Source: Prostheceraeus crozeri (Eukaryota; Platyhelminthes; Polycladida; Euryleptidae). From it: DNA of 64,000 bases. Below are positions 20,835 to 43,358 of this stretch, one piece after another. A program made the translations under genes and the position numbers. The notes beneath the pieces were generated by a model. It saw only the letters and a program-made list of their open reading frames with translations, was not told where the DNA came from and searched no databases. The stretch spans positions 1-64,000 of the forward strand of contig CAJQUW010006778.1 of the NCBI GenBank assembly GCA_907163375.1, read 5' to 3'. The first letter of the stretch is position 1; each line of letters starts with the position of its first letter.

Positions 20835-22059
20835 AGTAGTAAGAAAGTGACAAACACCCGACCGGCGCGCCCCCTCCCCCTCCCCTCCCCCTCCCCCCCT
20901 CTGGAACGACAGAGGTTGTGGTCTGTCGTGGTGTGCCGGCCAGGTTGGTTCACGTTCACAACATGTTCGCTGACTCCCCCCCTCCCCCTCCCCCTCCCCC
21001 CCTCAAAAACGACAGAGTGTGAGACTCGGATGTGTTGGTCTCGTATGGGTTGACGTGGCCGACCGCCTAGGTTGACGTGGGCGACCGTCTAGGTTGACGT
21101 GGGCGACCGTCTAGGTTGACGTGGGCGACCGTCTAGGTTGGCGTGGTGGAATGGTGAAACGGACTTTAGATTCGTGATCAGCGTAAAATTCCGCATCGGT
21201 ATGGTGAATTTGAAGTCAATCGGCGAGAAAAAATGTTTCTTCAAAATTTTGGCAGAGTTAAAATTTGGGACGTTTTGGTCTGTAGCGCCCAAACGAAGCA
21301 TCGGATGAGAAAACGGAGGCCAGATTTGGATTCAGCGTGAAATTCTGCATCGGTATGGTGAATTTGAACGCCATCGGAGAGAAACATTTTCGCTGACGTC
21401 CCCCCCTCTGGACAGCTCGCTTCGATTTTGGCTTCCAGTGGACGGATTTTGTCGTGCCATAGCTCGTTTGAAAGCTAAGAGTGAGACAAATTCACTGAAA
21501 CAAACGGCTTGTTCCTATCTGTCTTCGTTTAGATGTGAGACGCCATTTAAGATTTTGGGACATTGGCGAAAAACGACAGAGTTAGAATTTGGGACGTTTT
21601 GGGCTGTAGCTTCAAAACGAAGCATCGGATGGGAAAACGGACTTCAGATTTGGAATCAGCGTGAAATTCTCTATCTGTATGGTGAGTTTCAAGTCAATCG
21701 GAGAGAAAAAGTTTCGCTGACGCCCCCCCCCCTCTGGACAGCTCGCTTCGATTTTGGCTTCTAGTGGACGGATTTTGTCGTGCCATAGCTCGTTTGAAAG
21801 CTATGAGTGAGACAAATTCACTGAAAGAATCGGCTTGTTCCTATCTGTCTTCGCTTAGATGTGAGACGCCATTTAAGATTTTGGGACATTGGCGAAAAAC
21901 GACAGTTAGAATTTTTGCGATGGCTGCCTACTGTAGAGCCAAAACGAAGCATCGGATGGGAAAACGGAGGCCAGATTCGGATTCAGCGTCAAATTCTACA
22001 TGGAAATGGTGTATTTCCAGCTCAATCGGAGCACTAGAACTGGAGATAGACGGGTTTTT
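20835..22059 (+). repeat. Left terminal inverted repeat, internally tandem
   Basis: Contains C-rich runs (20871-20900, 20978-21002), a tandem GGTTGACGTGGGCGACCGTCTA array (21051-21150), and a 326-bp unit present twice (21408 and 21734). The same blocks recur reverse-complemented at 42140-43358. Confidence 0.8.
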
Positions 22060-25839: not shown

Positions 25840-28800
25840 ATGGTAAGTTGAAAATTTCTTCACTCATCTCCCTCAAACGTGTGGCTAATAGCATTTTCCT
25901 CAATTTCAGGCATCAACTTCATCACCAACGCCCTCCCTTCTCGAGGAAAGTTTGGAGTTGTTGAGTCAAGGTAGGTTGTAACAATACACTGAGACTTGAA
26001 CAGAGATGAAAGAATGATTTCTCTTTCAGGTGATACCAGTTCCATCTCGTGCGAGTCCATATCAACATTGTCGCGGGAATGCAACGATCGGGAATGTGCT
26101 GACTGTGGACACATCTTCACGAGGAAGCGTGATCTCATCCGACACATCAAGCGAGGTGTTTGTAGACTTAAGCCGGCATCAATCTCCGAAGGTAGGGATG
26201 ATTCTGTTAACGATGTCTCCTTTTCTTGCGATTTATGCATTCAGTCTTTCGAGACACGTTTTGAACTATCTTCGCACAGACTTCAACATACACACGGTGA
26301 CGATAGTTATACTAACAGCACCTCCTCTATCCGACTCACTGAAGTGTCCATAAATAATTTAGTGAGGAACTACCAGATGGACTCCTCAGAAACCATTGCT
26401 AACTTTGAGGAATGGTTTCATCAAAATTCATCATTGATAGAAGCGCTCTTCAACAATTTAGACAATTTTAGAATGAAGGCGCTCATCTATCTTAAAATAA
26501 AATATGTAAAAATCGACCACCATACTGGACAAATAATAGAGAGGTTGGAGTTTCACATACCCTCCTCTCCTGCAACCGAGGTTGTAGACTATGAGTCTTG
26601 GATAAATTTTCACATCAAAGGATTAAAATTAAATATTGATAAATTTAACGAGCGCGATAGTGGTCTCATTTTTGACGGCATTGAGTCCGCCTTATTTAAA
26701 ATCACTTTATTAGAGAACTACTCTGGACGAGGCTCCTTTAAACTTCCGAAAAGTTTAAAAAATAAAACAGCAGTCATTTCTGTAGATTGTGAATCGCAAT
26801 GTTTTAAATATGCTGTCCTCTCCATTCTCCACTATAATGATGTACAGAATAGCCGATACCGCAAGAGTAAGTATCAACAGTGGGAGAATGAATTAAACTT
26901 CGATGACTGTAATAGTGACGATATGAAAATTAAAGATATAGAAAAATTTGAAAAATTGAACAACATTAAAATAGTTCTCCATGTTTGGGAAAAAGGATTG
27001 AAGGGTGTGCGCTACAACTCGCGTTCGAGTTGTTATGAACGTACAGTAAACCTGTTATTAGTAAAACAGGATGATAGTGAGGAATGGCACTACTGCGGCA
27101 TTCCCAAAATCTCTCGCTTATACCACCACTTAGAAAACTCTAGTAGAGAGTTATATTACTGCGACAGATGTATTCGGAACTTTAGGAGTAAAAACAAATT
27201 TGAAACTCATTACGAATGGTGTAAGCGAGGTAAACTGCAAATGGAGCGCATGCCCAAAGATAAGGAGTTTTCATATAGAGAGAATGGCGATGAACTAAGT
27301 CCTCTTCGTGTCATCTATGCTGACATCGAATGCTATATCGATGATAACATCCATCGACCAGCAGCCATTTCCTGCTATGAAGTATGGCATGATCACTTTA
27401 GGGGTAGGCAAAATAAAATGCGCGTCTGGCAAGGTGAGGATTGTATTTACCATTTCCTACAATTCCTCGAACAGGCTGTAAAATTTCAGCAAAAGTATGA
27501 TGGTGAACTCTATCGCAGATCATTGCATTTGACAGCAGATGATCAAGCAAAATGTAGGAAGCCCCAAATGTAGGAAAACATTTGATGATGATAAGATTAA
27601 GAAAGTGCGCGACCATGATCACATCACTGGTAAATTTAGAAACGCACTCTGTTCCAAATGTAATTTTTCGCTGAGGATGAAGCGGCGTACATTACCCGTC
27701 ATTTTCCATAATTTCAAGGGCTACGACAGCCATATGATAATAAAAGGAGGTTTAGGTCAAATGAAAGAGTGGAAGCTTGATGTAATAGCACAAACGAGAG
27801 AGAAGTTTATGGCCATGACAGCAAAAGTGCCTGTCGATAAAACTAAAGAAAATAAGACGGTCTATTTTGATATAACATTTTTAGATTCCTACCAATTTAT
27901 GACTGCGTCACTGGCCTCTCTCGTACAAAATCTAAAGTCTCTTCCACTAACACAAAATCTTAAGAAACAATATCCAAATCTAACCGATGAAGTCATCACA
28001 CGGAAAGGAGTCTTTCCATATGCATATTTTGATGCGATTAGTAAACTCGGCGAGACTTCTCTTCCGCCCATAGATAAATTTAAAAATGATTTGAGCGGTG
28101 CAGAATGTAAGACCGAAGATTATGATCATGCACAAGATGCATGGATAAAATTTGACTGCCATACATTTGGTGAATATATGATTGCCTACCTTAAGTTAGA
28201 TGTATTTTTGCTGGCTGATGTATTTCAGGAGTTTCGACGAGTGGCATTAGAAGAAGATAAGTTAGATCCCGTCCACTTTGTCAGTCTGCCAGCCATGTCA
28301 TTTAAGTCTGCTTTTAAAATGACTGGTGAGACCATTCATCTCTTACAAGATCCAGAGATGTATAATTTATTAGAGCGAGGAATTCGCGGTGGTCTCACAT
28401 TTGTAAATAAACATAGGTTAAAATCAAAATTAGTAGGCGATGATCAGACTCATCTTAAGTATTATGACCAAAATAATTTATATGGTAGTTCACTATCCAA
28501 ACCACTCCCTCACTCTGAGTTTAGCTGGTTAGATGATAGTGAAATTCAGCATCTCTCCAACCCTTCTAACATACTAGCAATTCCAGATGAAGGTGATTGG
28601 GGATATTATTTTGAGATACACGTAGATCTAATCTATCCAAATAATATTAAACATAAAACCGTAGATTTTCCACTCGCACCCGAATCAGGTGAAGTGACCA
28701 AAGATATGTTTTCCGACTTTATGAAACAATTTCATAAAGATTTAGAATCATGCGGTCAACCCGACTATAAGCCTTGCCGCAAACTTTTACTCACCCAGTA

Positions 28801-29818
28801 TGATAAGGAAAACTATCTAGTCCACTTTAGCATCTTAAAATTTTATTTAGAAATGGGTATGATTTTAAAAAGAGTTCACCGCATTATTAAATTTAGACAG
28901 AAAGCCTTCCTCAAACCATATATTGATAGCAACAGCCAGAAACGTGCACTAGCCCAAAATAATTTTGAAAAAGATTTTTATAAGTATAAGAATAATAGTC
29001 TATTTGGTAAGACGATGGAGGATGTCAGAAAACGTGTAAACTATAAACTAGTCAATGATGTTACAAAATTTAAGAAATTGGTCTCATCACCTCTATTCAT
29101 CGATAGAGACATTATCGATGAGGACCTTGGTGTTAAAATGATAAAATCTGAAGTTGAGTTGTGCAAACCCATCTATATTGGTCAAGCTGTACTAGATTAC
29201 TCTAAGCTTGAAATGTACCAACTCTTTTATAAAATACTAAAACCATGTCCTCTCGTAAAAGAGGTTCGTTTGTTGGGTGGCGATACAGATAGTTTCTTCT
29301 TAGGTATTACCACTCAAAAAGATTTAAGTTTCAATGAAGTAGGAAAATCTTTAGAAAGATATTTTGATACATCAAATTATCCTACTGATCACCCACTCTA
29401 CTCCATCAAAAATAAGGCAAAACTTGGCTGCTTTAAGGATGAGACAGCAGGGAAGGAAATAGATGAAATGATTCTCCTCCGTCCAAAAATGTACAGTATG
29501 AAATTAAAGGATAGTGATGATAGCATTAAGCGCGCTAAAGGCATATCAAGATCATTGGTCTCTAACATGAAACATAAGAATTTCAGGAAAGCCTATAGAA
29601 ATAAAAATATAACGTTTGTCGATATGACAATCTTAAAATCTAAGTCGCATGAGATCAAAACTCATACTTTTAGGAAACGGGCGCTTTCAGCATGGGAGGA
29701 TAAGAGGTGCTGGCTAGAACACAACATATCTCTTCCACATGGACATCCTGACACAAACATACCACCACCCAAAAGAATTAAACTCACACTACCACATTCA
29801 GGAGACGTCTTAGCATAA
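25840..29818 (+). CDS. Polinton DNA polymerase B, spliced, one frame change
   Basis: Three exons: 25840-25842 (the ATG alone), 25910-25970, and 26030 onward, with introns of 67 and 59 bp and clean GT-AG sites. Domains in order: C2H2 fingers (CADCGHIF...H; CDLC...H...H); the Polinton N-terminal module; a Cys/His pair (CFKYAVLSILH; WHYCGIPKISRL) that may be an inactive or active papain/OTU-like fold; a third finger (CDRC...H...C); Exo I YADIEC; the HNH-like KVRDHDHITG...CSKCN; Exo II NFKGYDSH; Exo III YLKLDVFLLAD; Pol A NNLYGSS; Pol B KNNSLFGKT; Pol C GGDTDSFF. The frame changes by +1 near 27555-27575, inside the finger before KVRDHDH. As assembled this would truncate the enzyme after the N-terminal half. 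All catalytic residues are otherwise intact. Confidence 0.93.
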
Positions 29819-30123: not shown

Positions 30124-33081
30124 TCACTTTGTTTTCCGAAACACTAACGTTATGAGGGATTTAGTATCTTTCACGTGGATGCACTCTTGTAAACCATTGG
30201 TAATTTTGATAGCAATAGAGGGTATAGTTTGTTTGACGACGGGATGATAGAAAATAGATTCAAACATCTTCTCGACTATTCCATATGAAGCGTCTTTATC
30301 ATGAATGAAATCACGTAAAATGTATTCTTTTTTCTCACCAACAGAAATAGGTAGAATCAAATCACTTTGAATGTAAAGGTGCTGTTCATGTTTATCAAGT
30401 GTCATTGGTGTTTCTATACCAATCGTATGCGCAGCAGCAAACACTGTTTGTAGCATTGAAAAACCAAAGAGTTTCTTCAAATTTTTACTCAATTGACATT
30501 GAATGTCATCACCCAGTCTCAGAACAACGCGTTGATTTTCAATTGAAAACGAAATGTGGTGTGTCTTTGCATCATATTTACTTTTCATCACATGCTTCAA
30601 CTTCTGTTGTATATAAGGATTTACTACATGAATGAAGCTTTCAACTGTATGATATAGACGCGGCATTATATTGATAGCAACTTTAGATTCTTCATAAGAC
30701 TGGTAAATTTTCTTGATGCGATCGCCATAGATGTCCACCCACCATTCATCATTAACTGAATTAGCTTTAGTGTGATATTCATGAGAAGCATACACCACAC
30801 CGCTTCCAATAATAGGTGTATAATGTCTTACAAAATGACGCAAGGTTGGAGAGAAATAAACTGTAAGTTTGTCATTATATTTCTGAATAACCAACTTATT
30901 TTTGTTCGCCATAATTTTCTCTCCATACTTCTTACCCACAGTCTCATTCCATCGTTTTACTAACTCAATAAGTGATAAAGGTTGAACACCACGCTTTTTC
31001 AAAATGATGCGTTCTTCACATTCTACAACATCTTCATCAAATATTTTAAATCTATAATGAAATTTGTTGATTCGATTTGAAAAAACTTTTTTAACATTTG
31101 CAGTAGCAATTGACGTTAGATGTAGTCCATGACCAAAACCAAGATGTGGATAGAATTCATTATCCAACCTCAGTGTAAGACCTTTAGTAAAAGAATGAAA
31201 GCGGAGGAACTGTCTCCCACTCCAATGATAGATAGTAAACTCATAAGCTTTCTGATTTTTATTCTTCATGATGGAAGTATTACCACTGTTGAATGCCTTA
31301 ATAATTTTCTCATTCCCAAATGGTTCATAAGAATCTGATTTTATCTGAATCCATTCATAGTTCCACTTTCCATCTGATGTTAAATTGTATGGGAACTGAA
31401 ATGCATTATTCATCGTTATTCCATCATGGGTGCGAGGAGTCAATATCATTTCTTCCAAATCATTCACATTCTGAATATTGCTATCATAGCAAATACTAGA
31501 AACGCCAACCTCCCATTCACCTTCTAAATGCAGTGGCCGATTTAATTCTACTCGATAGTCTGATGGTTTATTTTTGGGAAATTTATTCATAGAAGCATTA
31601 CTGGGCAAGTAGATTAGAAACGAGTCCTTATTTTCCCTTTCCATATTATTCACATTGGAAAAATATATTAGCATACGTTTGCATTGACTCTTCATTCGGA
31701 AATGGAGTGTGATACTTGTCACAGCATCTTTATGAAAAGGAATCAACGCACTAGCATCGTCATAAATGGCAATATCAATTTGTGGGATGTAGTTTGATTT
31801 CAGCTTTGTATAATGCACTTTCTTGAAAGTATGCTCAGATAAAATACTGCAGCTTTTTGGCTGGTATGGTATCATTGCTAGCAATGGAGCTTCAACATCT
31901 CCCACACGTACATCTTCACCAATATTGGAATATATCTGAAAATAGGTAATACGACGCGATAGCGACATGTCTGCGCTAGCTTCGGTTACAGTACCACTTT
32001 TAAAGATATTTTGATCAAAACCCAAAATGTCCATTAGAGTTTTATCCATAATTAGTTCAATACCTTTTCCACTTATAGTGAGAGACAAAGTACCTTCTTT
32101 TTCAGAAAATAAAATATGTTGCTCATTAATCACTTCATTTAAATAATCTACAACCAATTTAACCGAAGTAATAATGCGAGGCATCAACACTCTTGTTTCA
32201 TGTAAGATACCACCTAAAGGCTCTACACACTTTCTGTATAAAGATACGGACCATTCTGTATCAAATTGATTTGACCTTTCACATGGTAAATGTTGCATAT
32301 CAGATTTTCCATGAACAGCTGCAGAACGATGTCGTAAGAACTGATGAAAATCTTTTGAACAAACTAATACTAGATCATCATCATTTAATTTGCTTATTGC
32401 AATATGATTAGATGATTTAATATAAGTCAATGTTGCCACTTGTTTACCATCAACTCGAAGGAGATAATTAAATTTCTTCAATAATGTTTCAGGAGTCATG
32501 TTTGTCTTTCTTGGCTTAAGCACAATCTTCTTCACCAACGTCTTCTCATTTCTTGGAATAAGATCTACATAATAAGCTTCCTCTCGATATATTAACTGTT
32601 TATGACCACTTATGTGGTAATTAACGTTAAAATTATCATAGCTTGTTAAGGCGCTAGCGAGGTAGCCTAAATCATTTCTTAAACTTGGACTTAAACCAAC
32701 AATCCAATCTTTCTCAACTACATGATGTACATAAGTATAATCATCATTGTGCGGAGTAAATTGGACAATATGTTTACACGCTTTATTCAAGAAATCATAT
32801 ATAAACTTTTTACATGATAAGAGATCTTTCTTTGGCCACTGTGGAATGTATACTCGGCACCCCTTTTCACATTGGTAAGCAGCTGTACGCCTCATATTAA
32901 TAGTCATCACCTCATGATCAAAAGTATAGACACAGTTGCTATAAACAAGTTGAGTGACACCCACTTCCCAATTTCCATTTAGCTGTTGTGCATGATCAAT
33001 GGGAGTAGAAAAGAGTGCGGCTCGATTACTAGCAAATCTCTTTGTAGCCGCATTGCTAAGCAAAATATGATAAAACGACAT
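30124..33081 (-). CDS. Large tandem-duplicated virion protein (penton-like), 985 aa
   Basis: Start at the ATG of MSFYHILLSN (33081); an upstream TTG extension is unlikely. The protein consists of two homologous halves. Half 1 opens FYHILLSNAATKRF...LNGNWEVGVTQLVY and half 2 (from about residue 495) opens FLIYLPSNASMNKFPKN...LEGEWEVGVSSICY. Each half then repeats the order: a middle block ending in FLRH/FVRHY, an MPRI/MPRL segment, an (I)LGF/LFGF segment, and in half 1 a C-terminal block ending TLHFR. This is the animal-Polinton minor capsid/penton-like family, here fused head to tail. In the AT-rich element the same family is a single 267-aa gene. It is absent from the equivalent place in the third element (62568-62846). 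Confidence 0.75.
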   Translation of the reverse strand: MSFYHILLSNAATKRFASNRAALFSTPIDHAQQLNGNWEVGVTQLVYSNCVYTFDHEVMTINMRRTAAYQCEKGCRVYIPQWPKKDLLSCKKFIYDFLNKACKHIVQFTPHNDDYTYVHHVVEKDWIVGLSPSLRNDLGYLASALTSYDNFNVNYHISGHKQLIYREEAYYVDLIPRNEKTLVKKIVLKPRKTNMTPETLLKKFNYLLRVDGKQVATLTYIKSSNHIAISKLNDDDLVLVCSKDFHQFLRHRSAAVHGKSDMQHLPCERSNQFDTEWSVSLYRKCVEPLGGILHETRVLMPRIITSVKLVVDYLNEVINEQHILFSEKEGTLSLTISGKGIELIMDKTLMDILGFDQNIFKSGTVTEASADMSLSRRITYFQIYSNIGEDVRVGDVEAPLLAMIPYQPKSCSILSEHTFKKVHYTKLKSNYIPQIDIAIYDDASALIPFHKDAVTSITLHFRMKSQCKRMLIYFSNVNNMERENKDSFLIYLPSNASMNKFPKNKPSDYRVELNRPLHLEGEWEVGVSSICYDSNIQNVNDLEEMILTPRTHDGITMNNAFQFPYNLTSDGKWNYEWIQIKSDSYEPFGNEKIIKAFNSGNTSIMKNKNQKAYEFTIYHWSGRQFLRFHSFTKGLTLRLDNEFYPHLGFGHGLHLTSIATANVKKVFSNRINKFHYRFKIFDEDVVECEERIILKKRGVQPLSLIELVKRWNETVGKKYGEKIMANKNKLVIQKYNDKLTVYFSPTLRHFVRHYTPIIGSGVVYASHEYHTKANSVNDEWWVDIYGDRIKKIYQSYEESKVAINIMPRLYHTVESFIHVVNPYIQQKLKHVMKSKYDAKTHHISFSIENQRVVLRLGDDIQCQLSKNLKKLFGFSMLQTVFAAAHTIGIETPMTLDKHEQHLYIQSDLILPISVGEKKEYILRDFIHDKDASYGIVEKMFESIFYHPVVKQTIPSIAIKITNGLQECIHVKDTKSLITLVFRKTK

Positions 33082-33116: not shown

Positions 33117-33473
33117 ATGAAGACTTGGATTTTGGACTCTCTACAATATATCAGAGTTGATCGTGATGGAAACGTACATTTCAAAAATTCTCATGGTCAT
33201 ACATCAAGAGGAATTACATTAACATGGCGACAATTTGTCAACCTCAATGATATCATGAGGGATTTGGAATATTTTGAAACATTAAGATTCATCTCCTTGG
33301 GTGATCAAGTTTGGCTTCAACATTACAGAAATGAAATTCAAATCTACCATTCTCATTCCGCAAACTGTTTCTCATTTCGCAAATACAATTGGGAGAAGTA
33401 TAGAAGATATATACATCGCTCCATCATGACATTTATTCGTCGTGAGTTCATCGCCCTACTATGCAAATCTTAA
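33117..33473 (+). CDS. PC4-like ssDNA-binding-type protein 1, 118 aa
   Basis: ATG at 33117 (MKTWILDSLQYIRVD). The N-terminal half, YIRVDRDGNVHF...SRGITLTWRQFVNLNDI, resembles the PC4/Sub1 core: two or three strands, then GI(S/T)L, then an amphipathic helix with a central Trp/Phe. The C-terminal half (QVWLQHYRNEIQIYH...WEKYRRYIHRSI) looks like a second strand-helix unit. It is followed directly by a paralogue. It is head-to-head with the 985-aa gene, with only 35 bp between the two ATGs. A PC4 assignment is a fold guess from pattern. Confidence 0.6.
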   Translation: MKTWILDSLQYIRVDRDGNVHFKNSHGHTSRGITLTWRQFVNLNDIMRDLEYFETLRFISLGDQVWLQHYRNEIQIYHSHSANCFSFRKYNWEKYRRYIHRSIMTFIRREFIALLCKS

Positions 33474-33495: not shown

Positions 33496-34146
33496 ATGAG
33501 TTGGAAATTAGATTTCCTACAACGTATTGAAACGGATCATGATCGAAACGTCTATTTCAAAGATTCAACTGGAAATGTGAGAAGAGAGTTTGCTTTATCT
33601 TATCGTCATTTTCAATCTCTACATCATATCATGAAGGACTTGAAATACTTCTATATGAAAAGACATTCACGTATTGGAAATCGCATCTGGCTGCGCGTCA
33701 ACAATCGGCGAATTCAACTCTATCATTCCCAACTTCATACTAACTTCACATTTCATCAAGGTAGTTGGGAAAAGTATAAAAGGAAGGTACATCGCTCAAT
33801 TTACTCATTCTTTCATCATGAAGCGCCATCGCTACACCATCGTCAACATTCTCCGTCGCTTCAGACTCTACACCAAAATCGATCTCACAACATTACACCA
33901 ACAGCTTCCAAACAGCAAGTATTACCCGGGCCGCCCTCAAATGTTAGTGGTGAAGATGAACAATTCACGGAATCTTCAACTCTTCCCAAATGGGACTGTA
34001 CAGATTCTCGGCGCCCTTTCTCATTCATCGGCGCAGTCAATGCGCTTAGAGCTACAAAGACTACTACGTCGGATATGGAAGAGGGAGAGGTGTGTGATGT
34101 CGAATCTGACTGTGGACAATATGGTGATCTCTACTCAATTGAGTGA
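33496..34146 (+). CDS. PC4-like protein 2, 216 aa, overlapping the TBP-like gene
   Basis: Residues 1-112 align along their length with the preceding 118-aa protein (LDFLQRIETDHDRNVYFKD...; LSYRHFQSLHHIMKDLKYF; SWEKYKRKVHRSIYSFF). The remaining roughly 104 codons are Ser/Thr/Pro-rich and lie over the start of the TBP-like gene in another frame. That tail may be real overprinting or simply an untranslated-in-practice extension. The third element has the same arrangement (62847-63407). Confidence 0.6.
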   Translation: MSWKLDFLQRIETDHDRNVYFKDSTGNVRREFALSYRHFQSLHHIMKDLKYFYMKRHSRIGNRIWLRVNNRRIQLYHSQLHTNFTFHQGSWEKYKRKVHRSIYSFFHHEAPSLHHRQHSPSLQTLHQNRSHNITPTASKQQVLPGPPSNVSGEDEQFTESSTLPKWDCTDSRRPFSFIGAVNALRATKTTTSDMEEGEVCDVESDCGQYGDLYSIE

Positions 34147-34363
34147 CAGTCTATCATTTTTGAAGATTCGTACCAGCAGTTACAGTTTGTGTTATGAACC
34201 CGAACTTTTTCCTGCAGCTCTCATTAGTTGTTGGTTACCTGTGCATGTGGCAATCTTTCATAATAGTAAAGTGATCATTACTGGACTAAAATCTCATGTA
34301 CAAGCAAATATGATCCTAGACTATCTCATTGAGTATGTACGTACCCAGCGGATTGTAAAATAA
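33818..34363 (+). CDS. TATA-binding-protein homologue, 181 aa
   Basis: A two-lobed TBP-fold protein. Lobe 2 has YEPELFPAALISCWLPVHVA followed by IFHNSKVIITGLKS, a close match to the conserved YEPELFPG...IF.SGKVV.TGAK region of cellular TBP. Lobe 1 has FRLYTKIDLTTLHQQL...GRPQMLVVKM...LQLFPNGTVQILGALS. Lobe 2 is preceded by VDNMVIS, as in TBP. Of the four Phe residues that kink DNA in TBP, three are present (LFPN, ELFP, AIFH); the first is Pro (GRPQ). Length equals the TBP core, with no N-terminal tail. The start overlaps the PC4-like gene. Inferred role: recognising element promoters or diverting host pol II initiation. Confidence 0.85.
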   Translation: MKRHRYTIVNILRRFRLYTKIDLTTLHQQLPNSKYYPGRPQMLVVKMNNSRNLQLFPNGTVQILGALSHSSAQSMRLELQRLLRRIWKRERCVMSNLTVDNMVISTQLSDSLSFLKIRTSSYSLCYEPELFPAALISCWLPVHVAIFHNSKVIITGLKSHVQANMILDYLIEYVRTQRIVK

Positions 34364-34394
34364 AAAACAATTTTTCCAACATGATGTTTTTATT
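34359..34394. terminator. Poly(A) signals overlapping two convergent stop codons
   Basis: Plus-strand AATAAA at 34359-34364 contains the TAA stop of the TBP-like gene. Minus-strand AATAAA at 34394-34389 contains the TAA stop of the protease. Only about 25 bp separate the convergent genes. Confidence 0.7.
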
Positions 34395-34851
34395 TCAAAT
34401 CATGATAGAACTTACAAATCATTTTTTCATTAGAGGATGGATTACATGAAAAGTTTTGAATAACAGATGCAAATCGAGATACATGTAAACGTTTTAAGAT
34501 GAAGTACAGTACAAAAGCACCACACGTTGATGAAAGTGGATGTTGTAGTATGCGTTCATTTCGCTGATATTGACGCGTATGTTTTCTCAACCACTGCTGT
34601 GTTGGTATATTTGGAGGTTGAGCAAGAGAGTCAAATAGTTCACCACGTCGGTCTTCTCCAATAAAGATCGCTTTCCAATGCTCACCGCCTAAATTCTGTG
34701 AATGAGTGTTTAGCACAATAAAGATGGGATAGTGATTTACTGCAGGTGGTAAGGTATCGAGTGAATAGACATTATCGAAAGCTTTCAACGTCGCTTCGTC
34801 TGCATTACGCTGCACTTTAGTCTTAATATCGTCAGCAGTCAACCAACTCAT
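34390..34851 (-). CDS. Adenain-like cysteine protease (Polinton PRO), 153 aa
   Basis: Maturation protease of the Ulp1/adenain clan, expected to cleave virion precursors. The catalytic pattern is visible: His in GGEHWKA, an acidic residue in ELFDSLAQPP, Gln in QHPLSSTCG, and nucleophile Cys in SSTCGAF. The size is typical for Polintons. Its start shares one base with the stop of the capsid gene (TAATG at 34853-34849), suggesting coupled or leaky translation, or separate transcripts. Confidence 0.88.
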   Translation of the reverse strand: MSWLTADDIKTKVQRNADEATLKAFDNVYSLDTLPPAVNHYPIFIVLNTHSQNLGGEHWKAIFIGEDRRGELFDSLAQPPNIPTQQWLRKHTRQYQRNERILQHPLSSTCGAFVLYFILKRLHVSRFASVIQNFSCNPSSNEKMICKFYHDLK

Positions 34852-36626: not shown

Positions 36627-37847
36627 TCACTGTCGATCACTTAGATGAAAGATGTCGACACGACGCATCCAAGAGTTCATACTTGAAGGATAACCAGTCC
36701 ATTTAACAAGACACCATTCTTCACCTTGCCGTTTTTTACATCGAATGATTTTCTCTACCAAATATGTTTCACTTTCAGTGACTACCTCAATCTCATCGCG
36801 GTAAAAGCTACCCTCAATTTCTTCATTATCGTAATCTTTCAACTTGTAGGTGGTCGGAGAGTCTTTTTGATTAATCCTTGATACTGTAAATACCTCCTCT
36901 GTCCAATTCGGGAGGTACCCTTTAGCAAAAACACTTTTCACTTTTGAGATACGAACTTTATCGCCAATTTTCACATCACTTTTCACATGAGTGCGTTTAC
37001 GTTGGAATGATTCGCGCACTTTATCTACATTGTCAGCATTTACATCTACTGGTCTGAGTCCAATAGAACGATGGATAGAGTGATTGTAGGCATGGAGTGT
37101 ATCTTGTAGAACCTTTGTCCAATTTTGTGTCAAGTTGGCAGTAAAATGTCGCCACAAACGATTTTTTAATGTGCGATTAAAACGTTCAACGAGTGCAGCT
37201 TTATAAGCGCTCTTTACACTAAACAACTCAATGTCATGCCTCTCAAATAATCTTGTCACATGCTGATTTTCAAACTCTTTTCCTTGATCACTCTGAATTC
37301 TTTTTGGAATGCGACCTTCTCGAAAAAGTGTTTGGAATGCTTTTGCTACTCCTTTCCCTTCTTTAGTTTTTAAAGGTTGAGCCCACGCATAACGCGAGAA
37401 AATATCAATGACGGTTAAAATAAAATTATTGCCCGAGTTATGTTTTGAAATGGAGGCAACATCGCACAAATCTGCTTGCCACTGTTCATCGATGTCATGA
37501 ACAATATAATGGCGGGTGCGGTACTTCTTTTTCGCTTGTTTGTGGAGTGTATAGGTAGCCTGACCCTTTAACCATCGTTTCACTTGTGATTGTGGAAGAC
37601 CACTCGCTTTTGATAATTTCTTGATAGATGCAAATCCTGCCGGATGTTTTACATCATAATAGATTGACTTCAAACGTTCAGTCGATGACGACTGACTCTT
37701 TTTCCTCCTTCTCATCTTTTTGTTTTCTTCCCTTTCTACATTTACAACAACTGCAGCATTTAGCTTTAGCGGTTTTGCGATCGTGTTCACATTGCTTAGG
37801 GGTTTCATTATGAGAGCTGGCGCAGCAAGTGCAAGTGACAACGACAT
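36627..37847 (-). CDS. Retroviral-type integrase with chromodomain, 406 aa
   Basis: Inserts the element. After a basic N-terminus there is a helix-turn-helix-like segment (SIKKLSKASGLPQSQVKRWL) and then the rve core with catalytic D (WQADLCD), D (QSDQGKEF) and E (LVERFNR), the last two separated by 33 residues. An SH3-like region with KIGDKVRISK follows, then a C-terminal chromodomain (YLVEKIIRCKK...WCLVKWTGYPSSMNSWMRR), which in other elements directs insertion to modified chromatin. All three catalytic residues are intact. The N-terminus overlaps a Cys-rich ORF at 37678-37893. Confidence 0.93.
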   Translation of the reverse strand: MSLSLALAAPALIMKPLSNVNTIAKPLKLNAAVVVNVEREENKKMRRRKKSQSSSTERLKSIYYDVKHPAGFASIKKLSKASGLPQSQVKRWLKGQATYTLHKQAKKKYRTRHYIVHDIDEQWQADLCDVASISKHNSGNNFILTVIDIFSRYAWAQPLKTKEGKGVAKAFQTLFREGRIPKRIQSDQGKEFENQHVTRLFERHDIELFSVKSAYKAALVERFNRTLKNRLWRHFTANLTQNWTKVLQDTLHAYNHSIHRSIGLRPVDVNADNVDKVRESFQRKRTHVKSDVKIGDKVRISKVKSVFAKGYLPNWTEEVFTVSRINQKDSPTTYKLKDYDNEEIEGSFYRDEIEVVTESETYLVEKIIRCKKRQGEEWCLVKWTGYPSSMNSWMRRVDIFHLSDRQ

Positions 37848-37894: not shown

Positions 37895-38587
37895 TTAATA
37901 ATCTGAGAACATGTATTTCCTGGGAGGAGCTGTTTTACGTTTTCCTTTTACCAGTTTTAGTGGCGATGTTGATCTACGTCGAGTTCTTCCTCTTGTTTGC
38001 TTAGTGAGTGTGGGAGGGGATGTAGCAGGTGACGCCTTAAACCAATTTGTTGGCATTTTCATCGTCTGAAGCATTGGAGTAGTAGCCACTGTTGAATCAA
38101 GTTCTTTCAATGTCTCATTATTCAAAGCAAATTTTGGCACATTATGCTTTTTCAATAGTTTAAGAAAGTATGACCAACCAGGTGGAACATAGCCCTGACG
38201 GCGCTTTCTACGTGTCGCATACTGAATCAAGTCTTCATAACGTGAAGCATCAATCACTTTATTTTCATCTGTAATGATTTCTCCTCTATCATTTACATTG
38301 AGATGGGGCTCAATACTATTGAAAAGAGATATGGCATGTGCGCGAGATGCTAAACGTGTAGCAGTCGATACAGAGTCACGCATCTTATTCTTCAAGTTTT
38401 TCAATTGCTCAACAGTTTCCGATTGTAATAATACAGCACGATGTGGATCTTTGATGTGAACATTTTGCTGATAATCTATTTCTTTCCTATACATTTGATT
38501 TGCAAGAGGTTGCTTTACTTGCTGCATGGCAGTCAATTGTACATATTCATCCTGAGGAATAACAATCATGCGAGAATAAGAACTCAT
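37895..38587 (-). CDS. Polinton-associated 230-aa protein, function unknown
   Basis: Helical, with a charged middle (LLQSETVEQLKNLKNKMRDS) and a C-terminal motif RRQGYVPPGWSYFLKLLKKHNVP, a recurrent hypothetical pattern beside ATPase and capsid genes in animal Polintons. The C-terminal tail is Arg/Ser/Thr-rich. Its ATG overlaps the ATPase stop by 4 bp (ATGA). Probably a structural or packaging protein. Confidence 0.6.
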   Translation of the reverse strand: MSSYSRMIVIPQDEYVQLTAMQQVKQPLANQMYRKEIDYQQNVHIKDPHRAVLLQSETVEQLKNLKNKMRDSVSTATRLASRAHAISLFNSIEPHLNVNDRGEIITDENKVIDASRYEDLIQYATRRKRRQGYVPPGWSYFLKLLKKHNVPKFALNNETLKELDSTVATTPMLQTMKMPTNWFKASPATSPPTLTKQTRGRTRRRSTSPLKLVKGKRKTAPPRKYMFSDY

Positions 38588-39201
38588 AGTTTGTAGATAA
38601 TCATGGGAGTTTTCAAAATATCACTTCGAAATCTAAATTCTTCCGGACACTCTTGCGTAAAGTCAATGAATAAGTAACCGTATGGTTTTTCAGTAGCTGC
38701 TTGAAAAATTTCAATTAAGGCTTTTGATCCTCTGGGTGCAACTTGTCGCGCTAAAATTTCAAATTGACTTTTATCTCGCGGATTCTTGAAAATAGCATAA
38801 TAGTGTGTATTCAGGTTTCGTGTACGAGCTTCTTTTCCATCAGGAAACAAATTTTGTGTAATATAGATGATAAAGCACCTTTTATGGTGTGCTGCGCGAG
38901 TAAACATATCTGTAACATCTTTTGAATTCTTACTTTCTTTTAATAAATCATCCAATACAACAACATCATTAGACTGAAGTTTATCCACTGGAATAATTCC
39001 TTCATGTCGAATAAAGTTGCGACTTTGCAATTCCTGAAACAGCGACGGTTGATAAATACCATAACACCAAATCACTCGATTGATAGGTTCCTTAAACAAC
39101 TCCCTTCTTTTATCCAATAAATTCAGCGTGAAAACAGTTTTACCTGCATGAGATGGACCTGATACAGTCAGAACTTTATCACATTGAAGTCTGAAATCCA
39201 T
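38584..39201 (-). CDS. Packaging ATPase (FtsK/HerA-type), 205 aa
   Basis: Starts at MDFRLQCDKVL. Walker A VSGPSHAGKT (about residues 13-22), Walker B DVVVLDDLL (about 83-91), and a downstream IIYITQN sensor-like strand with conserved polar residue. It pumps the genome into capsids in this lineage. Intact, unlike the AT-rich element's copies. An upstream extension to 39249 begins with TTG and is not needed. Confidence 0.88.
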   Translation of the reverse strand: MDFRLQCDKVLTVSGPSHAGKTVFTLNLLDKRRELFKEPINRVIWCYGIYQPSLFQELQSRNFIRHEGIIPVDKLQSNDVVVLDDLLKESKNSKDVTDMFTRAAHHKRCFIIYITQNLFPDGKEARTRNLNTHYYAIFKNPRDKSQFEILARQVAPRGSKALIEIFQAATEKPYGYLFIDFTQECPEEFRFRSDILKTPMIIYKL

Positions 39202-39640: not shown

Positions 39641-39964
39641 CTAACTATTGCGACATAAGTGACACTCGAAATGAGCAATATCACAGTGGTAACATTGGCA
39701 AAGTTGAATGCAATTACGTATGAAACAGCGTTGACAAAAAGCATGCTTACATCTCTTGAAGATGCGCTTTTCATTTCCATCCTTTCGCTTACATACATCA
39801 CAACACATAGTTTCACCGTTACTGATGTCTATAGCAAGTCTTTTTGAAGATATGAATTTGCTAGCCTTTTCTAAATAATAGACGCATGTACAGAAGGAAT
39901 ATACTTCGAGAGTGAGCAGACATAGCTCGAAAACCAGTTGTGCTACAATCAAGTACCACTGCAT
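39641..39964 (-). CDS. Membrane-anchored RING-like protein, 107 aa
   Basis: ATG at 39964 (MQWYLIVAQLVFELC). An N-terminal hydrophobic segment (residues about 3-30) is a probable TM or signal anchor. Then CCDVCKRKDG...RCKHAFCQRCF...CQCYHC gives the C-x2-C ... C-x-H-x2-C-x2-C ... C-x2-C spacing of a RING-type finger. It could be a ubiquitin ligase acting on host factors. It begins 3 bp from the end of the preceding minus-strand gene. Confidence 0.6.
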   Translation of the reverse strand: MQWYLIVAQLVFELCLLTLEVYSFCTCVYYLEKASKFISSKRLAIDISNGETMCCDVCKRKDGNEKRIFKRCKHAFCQRCFIRNCIQLCQCYHCDIAHFECHLCRNS

Positions 39965-42139: not shown

Positions 42140-43358
42140 ATCAAGTTGATTCCAAATCTGGCATCCGTTTACCAATCCGATAGTTCGTTTTGAAGCTACA
42201 GCCCAAAACGTCCCAAATTCTAACTCTGTCGTTTTTCACCAATGTCCCAAAATCTTAAATGGCGTCTCACATCTAAACGAAGGCAGATACGAACAAGCCG
42301 ATTCTTTCACTGAATTTGTCTCACTCTTAGCTTTCAAACAAGCTATCGCACGACAAAATCCGTCCACTGGAAGCAAGCCGTCCAGGGGGGGGGGACGTCA
42401 GCCGAAAATTTTTTCTCTCCGATTTCGCTGGAAACATCCTTCCTAACCCAAAATTTCACGTAGATTCCGAATCTGACCTCCGTTTTCTCATCCGATGCTT
42501 CGTTTGGACGCTACACACCAAAAACATCACACACTATAGCCTCAAGACTAATCCTGGCGGTCGCCCACGTCAACCTAGACGGCCGCCCACGTCAACCAGG
42601 CGGTCGGACCAACTCACCCGAGTCTCACACTCTGTTGTTGCAGAGGGGGGGGGACGTCATCGAACATGTTGTGAACGTGGACCCACCTGGCCGGCACACC
42701 ACGACAGACCACAACCTCTGTCGTTCCAGGGGGGGGGACGTCAGCCGAAAATTTTTTCTCTCCGATTTCGCTGGAAACATCCTTCCTAACCCAAAATTTC
42801 ACGTAGATTCCGAATCTGGCCTCCGTTTTCTCATCCGATGCTTCGTTTGGGCGCTACACACCAAAACGTCCCAAATTCTAACTCTGTCGTTTTTCGAAAA
42901 ATGTTGAAAATTTTTTCTCACCGATTGCCTTGAAACTCACCCTACCGATGGAGAATTTCACGCTGAATCCGAATCTGACCTCCGTTTTCTCATCCGATGC
43001 TTCGTTTGGACGCTACACACCAAAAACATCACACACTATAGCCTCAAGACTAATCCTGGCGGTCGCCCACGTCAACCTAGACGGTCGCCCACGTCAACCA
43101 GGCGGTCGGACCAACTCACCCGAGTCTCACACTCTGTTGTTGCAGAGGGGGGGGGAAGTCAGCGAACATGTTGTGAACGTGGACCCACCTGGCCGGCACA
43201 CCACGACAGACCACAACCTCTGTCGTTCCAGAGGGGGGGGGACTCAGACACGAAGCACCACGGCGGCCGACCACGACACTCTGCCGTGCCAGAGGGGGGG
43301 GGGACGCAGCGATGGCCGCCATCTTGCGCGGTCCAGAAGTGGAGTTTTGCTTACTACT
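42140..43358 (-). repeat. Right terminal inverted repeat
   Basis: Reverse-complement relatives of the left repeat: the AGCCCAAAACGTCCCAAATT and CACGACAAAATCCGTCCACT blocks, the ACATGTTGTGAACGTG block, GTCGCCCACGTCAACCTAGA arrays and G-runs. Internally duplicated (blocks at 42390 and 42735; 42490 and 43000). Ends CTTACTACT at 43358. Confidence 0.8.

Follow-up and report, generated by a model that had tools for sequence, protein, structure and literature searches.

TATA-box binding protein (TBP) bends DNA and normally tolerates G-C within its site poorly, and TRF2, an animal gene, is a TBP relative without some of the key phenylalanines. TBP-like proteins are also encoded by poxviruses, giant viruses and mirusviruses, as described in the passages available from PMC7221094, PMC10132985, PMC11464507 and PMC12085832 (those from the latter three papers concern giant viruses or mirusviruses), and mirusvirus-like algal insertions without Polinton core genes carry sporadic TBP genes (excerpt of PMC10675990). 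According to the available part of PMC7221094, most viral TBPs no longer have the TFIIB contact, and nearly all of them are accompanied by a viral TFIIB. The vTBP of beta- and gamma-herpesviruses, ORF24 in KSHV, acts at a non-canonical late core promoter (TATT) with host Pol II, contacts the Pol II CTD directly and depends on five or more further viral proteins (PMC7498053, available in part), and the Giardia TBP is a further relative without some key phenylalanines (excerpt of PMC12209930). Here we describe a TBP-like gene in a Polinton-type element of the polyclad flatworm Prostheceraeus crozeri. Unlike the TBPs of yeast, human and archaea, and unlike TRF2/TBPL1 and the Giardia TBP, which are likewise cellular, it is borne by a mobile element. 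No report of a Polinton TBP was found among the matches listed in the literature surveyed, the sources being covered in part and the founding Polinton and adintovirus papers lying outside that coverage. The terms TATA, TBP and TFIID have zero occurrences in the main text of PMC11071296, PMC11071308, PMC10120064, PMC7805220 and PMC11244446; in PMC12220804, TBP does not occur and TATA appears only within an author name. This agrees with the first-pass annotation, which had not been aware of TBP as an established Polinton gene. Virus-encoded TBP is already known and TBP in Polintons would be the new part, though it may already be present in annotations; some database homologues are already labelled automatically 'TATA-box binding protein (TBP)'.

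The window, the whole 64,000-nt stretch of DNA that was analysed, contains the element summarised in Table 1. It had been called a Polinton, a label with good support that nevertheless does not extend to all hallmarks. Long inverted repeats, whose arms include 21431-21664/42141-42374 as well as others, and an integrase with an rve core and a chromodomain speak for it; on the other side, the PolB Pfam model (PF03175) matched the polymerase ORFs of neither the window nor lineage B (a related lineage in the same genome, described below), and no 6-bp target-site duplication was found in the ranges tried, a run of N lying just outside the left end. The polymerase region is labelled from motifs recognised by eye, which we take to be those of PolB, and its second ORF has a 58% identical homologue in lineage B. 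The lineage B integrase has a higher Pfam score than that of the window, and the lineage B homologue of the Ulp1/adenain-like protease (PRO) reaches 23.2 bits, over the cut-off of 20.7. The 425-aa capsid-like ORF gave no Pfam match above cut-off; judged from its sequence, it is the probable major capsid protein. For the 118-aa adenovirus-pX-like ORF, the Pfam match was below cut-off.

Several structural features of the element were also noted. Both terminal repeat regions hold the same segments in several copies, nested and shifted, as if the element ends had been remodelled by unequal exchange. The two polymerase ORFs do not share a frame; the region has an endonuclease VII-like stretch and, close to its start, a C2H2 zinc finger. 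The 985-aa ORF contains an internal duplication, in which residues from ~482 onwards match the same places as its start, and its homologue in lineage B (L044) is split into two ORFs of 461 and 514 aa. A 107-aa ORF (39641-39964) without a Pfam match above cut-off has a cysteine-rich CxxC pattern that, as far as we can tell, resembles a RING finger.

Table 1. Features of the Polinton-type element, in window coordinates
Feature	Position	Strand	Remarks
Left terminal inverted repeat region	20892..22020	+	Nested repeats
DNA polymerase region, two overlapping ORFs	26014..29818 (26014-27573, 27539-29818)	+	
985-aa ORF	30124..33081	-	
ATGCAAA	33104..33110	-	29 nt before 985-aa ORF; lies between divergent genes 35 nt apart
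118-aa ORF	33117..33473	+	Predicted PUR-alpha/PC4-like fold (two bbbba units)
ATGCAAA	33461..33467	+	35 nt before 216-aa ORF, within 3' end of 118-aa ORF
216-aa ORF	33496..34146	+	3' part overlaps TBP gene in a different frame
TATAAAAG	33775..33782	+	43 nt upstream of TBP start codon
TBP-like gene, intronless, 181 aa	33818..34363	+	Translation, Pfam, PDB sequence search, predicted structure, alignment
PRO, Ulp1/adenain-like protease	34390..34851	-	Convergent with TBP; C48 19.2 bits, cut-off 20.7
Capsid-like protein, 425 aa	34851..36128	-	Lineage B has a homologue in the equivalent position (54% identity)
ATGCAAA	36617..36623	-	20 nt before 161-aa ORF, intergenic
Integrase, rve core and chromodomain	36627..37847	-	rve 41.8 bits, Chromo 28.3 bits, both above cut-off
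Packaging-type ATPase	38584..39201	-	Pox_A32 14.4 bits, cut-off 22.8; 66% identical lineage B homologue
ATGCAAA	39224..39230	-	29 nt before ATPase, intergenic
ATGCAAA	39629..39635	-	46 nt before 118-aa adenovirus-pX-like ORF, intergenic
Right terminal inverted repeat region	42141..43239	-	

On its sequence and predicted structure, the product of the TBP-like gene is a member of the TBP superfamily (PF00352). The Pfam model matched two stretches of the protein with 71.6 bits (cut-off 22.9), and the predicted structure contains the pseudo-twofold, two-lobed saddle; the N-lobe spans approximately residues 5-88 and the C-lobe 96-176. The first-pass annotation had proposed a two-lobed TBP homologue from two quoted segments. 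Translation placed both within one 181-aa ORF, and the profile and structure checks that it had suggested both returned TBP, with neither a missing profile match nor a missing saddle, the outcomes it had named as refuting. In a PDB sequence search, 35 of the 36 distinct sequences matched at E<=10 were TBPs or TBP fusions, headed by an archaeal TBP (E 2.1e-12), with TonB as the sole non-TBP. The best named match in BFVD was the TBP of Heterosigma akashiwo virus 01 (E 1.3e-10). NCBIfam TBP models also matched, every one below its cut-off, and identity to cellular TBPs was 18-27%. Since PF00352 was found in all 61 database homologues, and since orthologues of ~42% identity stand beside PRO in lineage B, chance resemblance to TBP is excluded.

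We then considered the distribution of the gene in the 2.05-Gb assembly. An identical, unbroken 181-aa protein was encoded by 150 of 150 scored copies, the top-ranking ones among 11,899 first-look candidates and so biased to perfect copies; because only the best candidates were scored, this demonstrates many young copies, not universal intactness. For 20 of the scored copies, DNA identity to the window was 98.6-99.7% over 2.2-3.5 kb each. A Pfam TBP search of the same genome, with the best 150 of 10,982 scored, revealed three element lineages carrying TBP among the scored matches: A (the window type), B and C. The TBPs of lineage B (L027, L028, L030) are 41-42% identical to that of the window and score 83.6 bits with Pfam, and the gene order of capsid-like protein, PRO, TBP and 985-aa homologue is conserved; the same order is seen in L033, a more diverged relative with an internal stop in TBP. 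Lineage C (L029, L031, L037, L041-L043) has TBPs of 41-45% identity (81.2 bits, over the cut-off as in B) near PolB remnants. In the search for the gene beside PRO that the first-pass annotation had suggested, TBP was found there in lineage B, and not in lineage C or in L050 (C318:58501-67500), a control piece with capsid-like (48%) and PRO (41%) homologues and no TBP beside PRO. A fixed TBP-PRO pairing is disfavoured because L050 has PRO without an adjoining TBP. In L050 the A/B-like capsid-like and PRO genes adjoin ORFs of another lineage, an arrangement that can be read as a nested insertion or recombination.

Point values of pN/pS were 0.51 in lineage A (six copies compared with the window; 0.49 beyond the overlap with the upstream ORF), 0.55 in lineage B (three pairs) and 0.38 in lineage C (15 pairs; 0.29 beyond that overlap), with a point value of 0.58 for the three unbroken lineage C copies alone. 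The values below 1, together with conservation at 42% identity, favour purifying selection and, at the level of sequence, speak for its action on the TBP gene in the element lineages. Internal stops in L038, L029, L031 and L037, as in L033, might instead suggest a stray or recently captured fragment of a host TBP, or a pseudogene. We regard this as highly improbable, given that the gene is conserved in three lineages, is far from cellular TBPs in identity with an archaeal best match in PDB, and coexists with the host's own genes: a canonical TBP whose separate exons lie on a single contig (L024, L026; 123.7 bits) and, at a locus separate from the element TBP, a gene that we take from its features to be TBPL1/TRF2-like.

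To describe the DNA-binding surface, residues were counted in a 62-sequence alignment with yeast TBP, using yeast numbering and the roles in base contacts, TFIIB contacts and the regulator helix that we assume for the yeast residues. The earlier reading that three intercalating phenylalanines are kept and the first is Pro was confirmed: F116, F190 and F207 are kept in 62, 61 and 62 of the 62 sequences (F56, F131 and F147 in the window), and F99 is Pro in 58, a gap in 3 and Gln in 1 (Pro40 in the window). Other N-lobe positions have changed along with F99. L114 is Gln in 58/62 (Q54 in the window), V122 is Gln in all 62 (Q62), T124 is Leu in 56/62 (L64) and V71 is Met in 38/62, with N69 kept in 50/62 and gaps in the remaining 12. 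In the C-lobe, the base contacts N159 (62/62), V161 (62/62) and T215 (61/62) are kept, V203 is His in 62/62 and L205 is Ala in 46/62. At these residues the family departs from the canonical TATA-reading TBP, having three of four intercalating phenylalanines and L114, V122 and T124 all replaced. By eye, the TBPs of lineages B and C have the same residue pattern, with single-copy exceptions such as L189 to Phe in L041. As judged from the alignment, the N-lobe is recoded family-wide, beyond one lost Phe; the C-lobe half of the saddle is canonical, as is the TFIIB stirrup.

The residues for protein contacts have followed two courses. Those for TFIIB are kept (E186 in 61/62, E188 in 62/62, L189 in 55/62; E127, E129 and L130 in the window), and in the basic helix K138 is Glu in 42/62 and K133 in 27/62. 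The latter region is presumably the surface bound by TFIIA, NC2, Mot1 and TAF1, so that the element TBP differs from cellular TBP here as well as in its N-lobe. No TFIIB was detected among the 19 element ORFs, TBP included, that were scanned with Pfam. The kept contact and the lack of a TFIIB among these ORFs point, from sequence, to use of the host TFIIB. Compared with the viral TBPs in the available part of PMC7221094, the element TBP is likewise virus-encoded with a lost regulator surface, but it retains the TFIIB contact, and the element ORFs scanned yielded no TFIIB.

The same two observations, combined with the alteration of half of the base-contact surface, would also fit a decoy or repressor whose binding to host TFIIB, and perhaps to DNA, is unproductive and lowers host transcription, leaving the element promoters unread. 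We think this unlikely, because N159, V161, T215 and three phenylalanines, kept in 61-62 of 62 sequences, would be needless for a TFIIB decoy, and because an upstream motif, described below, is common to two lineages. On balance, we consider it somewhat probable that the Polinton-encoded TBP is the element's own promoter-recognition factor, as the first-pass annotation had inferred.

The genes directly upstream of TBP bear on another alternative. The 118-aa ORF there has a predicted PUR-alpha/PC4-like fold of ssDNA-binding type, and the N-terminal ~110 aa of the 216-aa ORF (33496-33825) are a tandem paralogue of it, 43% identical. A DNA-bending protein with ssDNA-binding-like neighbours could be a replication or packaging factor acting on the terminal repeats or an origin, and both the bending of DNA by TBP and the predicted fold of the neighbour at 33117-33473 count in favour of this. 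The conserved TFIIB residues, however, have no obvious use in replication, and we give this explanation a small chance, like that of a decoy. The 216-aa ORF overlaps the TBP gene over ~330 nt (33818-34146). The same kind of overlap, with an o216-like ORF, occurs in lineages B and C as well as in A, so the double coding may be long-standing. A TATAAAA-like sequence is found in lineages B and C at a place similar to that of TATAAAAG, with L043 and L041 deviating by one base; since the upstream ORF codes through this site, its conservation may serve the peptide.

The motif ATGCAAA was first spotted by eye in lineage A, where it is the commonest 7-mer at -60 to -10, before 5 of 17 ORFs; a best 7-mer count of 5 was reached in 6 of 5000 random-position sets. 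The top 8-mer, TATGCAAA, has a count of 4 (matched in 15/5000 random sets). In the window, YATGCAAAK has seven sites, six of them within the element and five at 20-46 nt before a start codon. Four of the five lineage A motif sites are intergenic. Lineage B was then examined by listing all k-mers. The top 6-mer was AAGCAA, found before 7 of 17 ORFs and in each case 33-47 nt before the ATG; any 6-mer reached 7 in 8 of 5000 trials. Among 7-mers, TAAGCAA was highest at 3/17, tied with TATTCTT. Three of the seven lineage B sites are inside neighbouring coding sequence (the capsid-like ORF and the homologues of the 161-aa and 230-aa ORFs). The motif cores of A and B are one base apart, and the fullest common form, TTAWGCAAA, is in the minority: two of the five lineage A sites read TTATGCAAA, and two of the seven in lineage B read TTAAGCAA. 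In both lineages the motif precedes the homologues of the 985-aa, 161-aa and pX-like genes; most ORFs (12/17 in A and 10/17 in B) are without it.

For comparison, AWGCAA was counted within 70 nt before ORFs in lineages A (7/23) and B (7/19) and, by the same rule, in three other Polinton-type pieces of this genome (0/9, 0/6 and, in L050, 1/8), in which the family profile detected no TBP (best E 0.022). A Fisher test of 14/42 against 1/23 gave p 0.006, a value that is not independent, since AWGCAA was chosen as the rule with A and B already in view. The control pieces are partial and not all clean, and L049 and L050 have related ORFs and hence are not independent of each other. L049 was chosen for a PolB match next door, on which its Polinton status rests, and its comparison with the window proteins gave no match at E<=0.01. 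L048 (C10109:430501-439500) represents a distinct Polinton-type lineage; before the ATG of its ORFs there are AT-rich stretches, for example TTTTTATAAAA, and no AWGCAA, a sequence pattern hinting at lineage-specific promoter codes.

The motif could belong to a host factor. ATGCAAAT equals the POU-factor octamer, and the element has 20 TATAWA sites on the + strand and 16 on the - strand, so ATGCAAA/AAGCAA may be a POU/octamer or C/EBP-like site with the TBP reading ordinary TATA boxes. This explanation overlaps that of a promoter-recognition factor, and we hold it to be a serious possibility, short of probable. Against it, the motif sites are at core-promoter distance, 20-47 nt before start codons, the motif changes by one base between lineages, AWGCAA is rare before control ORFs, and the recognition residues of the N-lobe are altered as a set.

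Within our preferred reading of the TBP as a promoter-recognition factor, we tentatively propose, as a possible though rather less likely extension, that the recoded TBP reads a G-C-containing core promoter (ATGCAAA/AAGCAA), recruits host TFIIB and Pol II and escapes host regulators, TBP and box having co-drifted between lineages. Against the promoter-factor reading stand the usual aversion of TBP to G-C within its site, the many ORFs that lack the motif, the minority status of TTAWGCAAA and the position of TATAAAAG inside another ORF. Host TBP would transcribe the element TBP gene early, from TATAAAAG (33775). The element TBP would then bind, via its altered half, the AWGCAA-type core element (in full, TTAWGCAAA) before the capsid, packaging and other genes, and host TFIIB and Pol II would be recruited through its kept stirrup. 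Mot1, NC2 and TAF1 would be avoided, giving a late transcription programme insulated from the host regulators of TBP, and the PUR/PC4-like neighbour proteins might assist at melted promoters or in replication. We propose host rather than element TFIIB because the viral TBPs that pair with a viral TFIIB have mostly lost this contact (PMC7221094, in part). The herpesvirus vTBP would be a functional analogue with a different recruitment step; unlike it, the element TBP is TBP-core sized and would rely on TFIIB.

To our knowledge, the expression of Polinton capsid genes is poorly understood, and an element-encoded TBP, if true, would supply a promoter-recognition step for these genes. Small Polinton-type elements would then be added to the list of viruses with a substitute for the first transcription factor of the cell. 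With its TFIIB contact retained, this TBP would represent a solution distinct from those of giant viruses, which have their own TFIIB, and of herpesviruses, which contact Pol II directly. The retooled half-saddle would be a natural experiment in TBP specificity and, if the pairing with the motif is true, the TBP and its box would form a naturally occurring orthogonal pair of TBP and promoter in animal-type nuclei.
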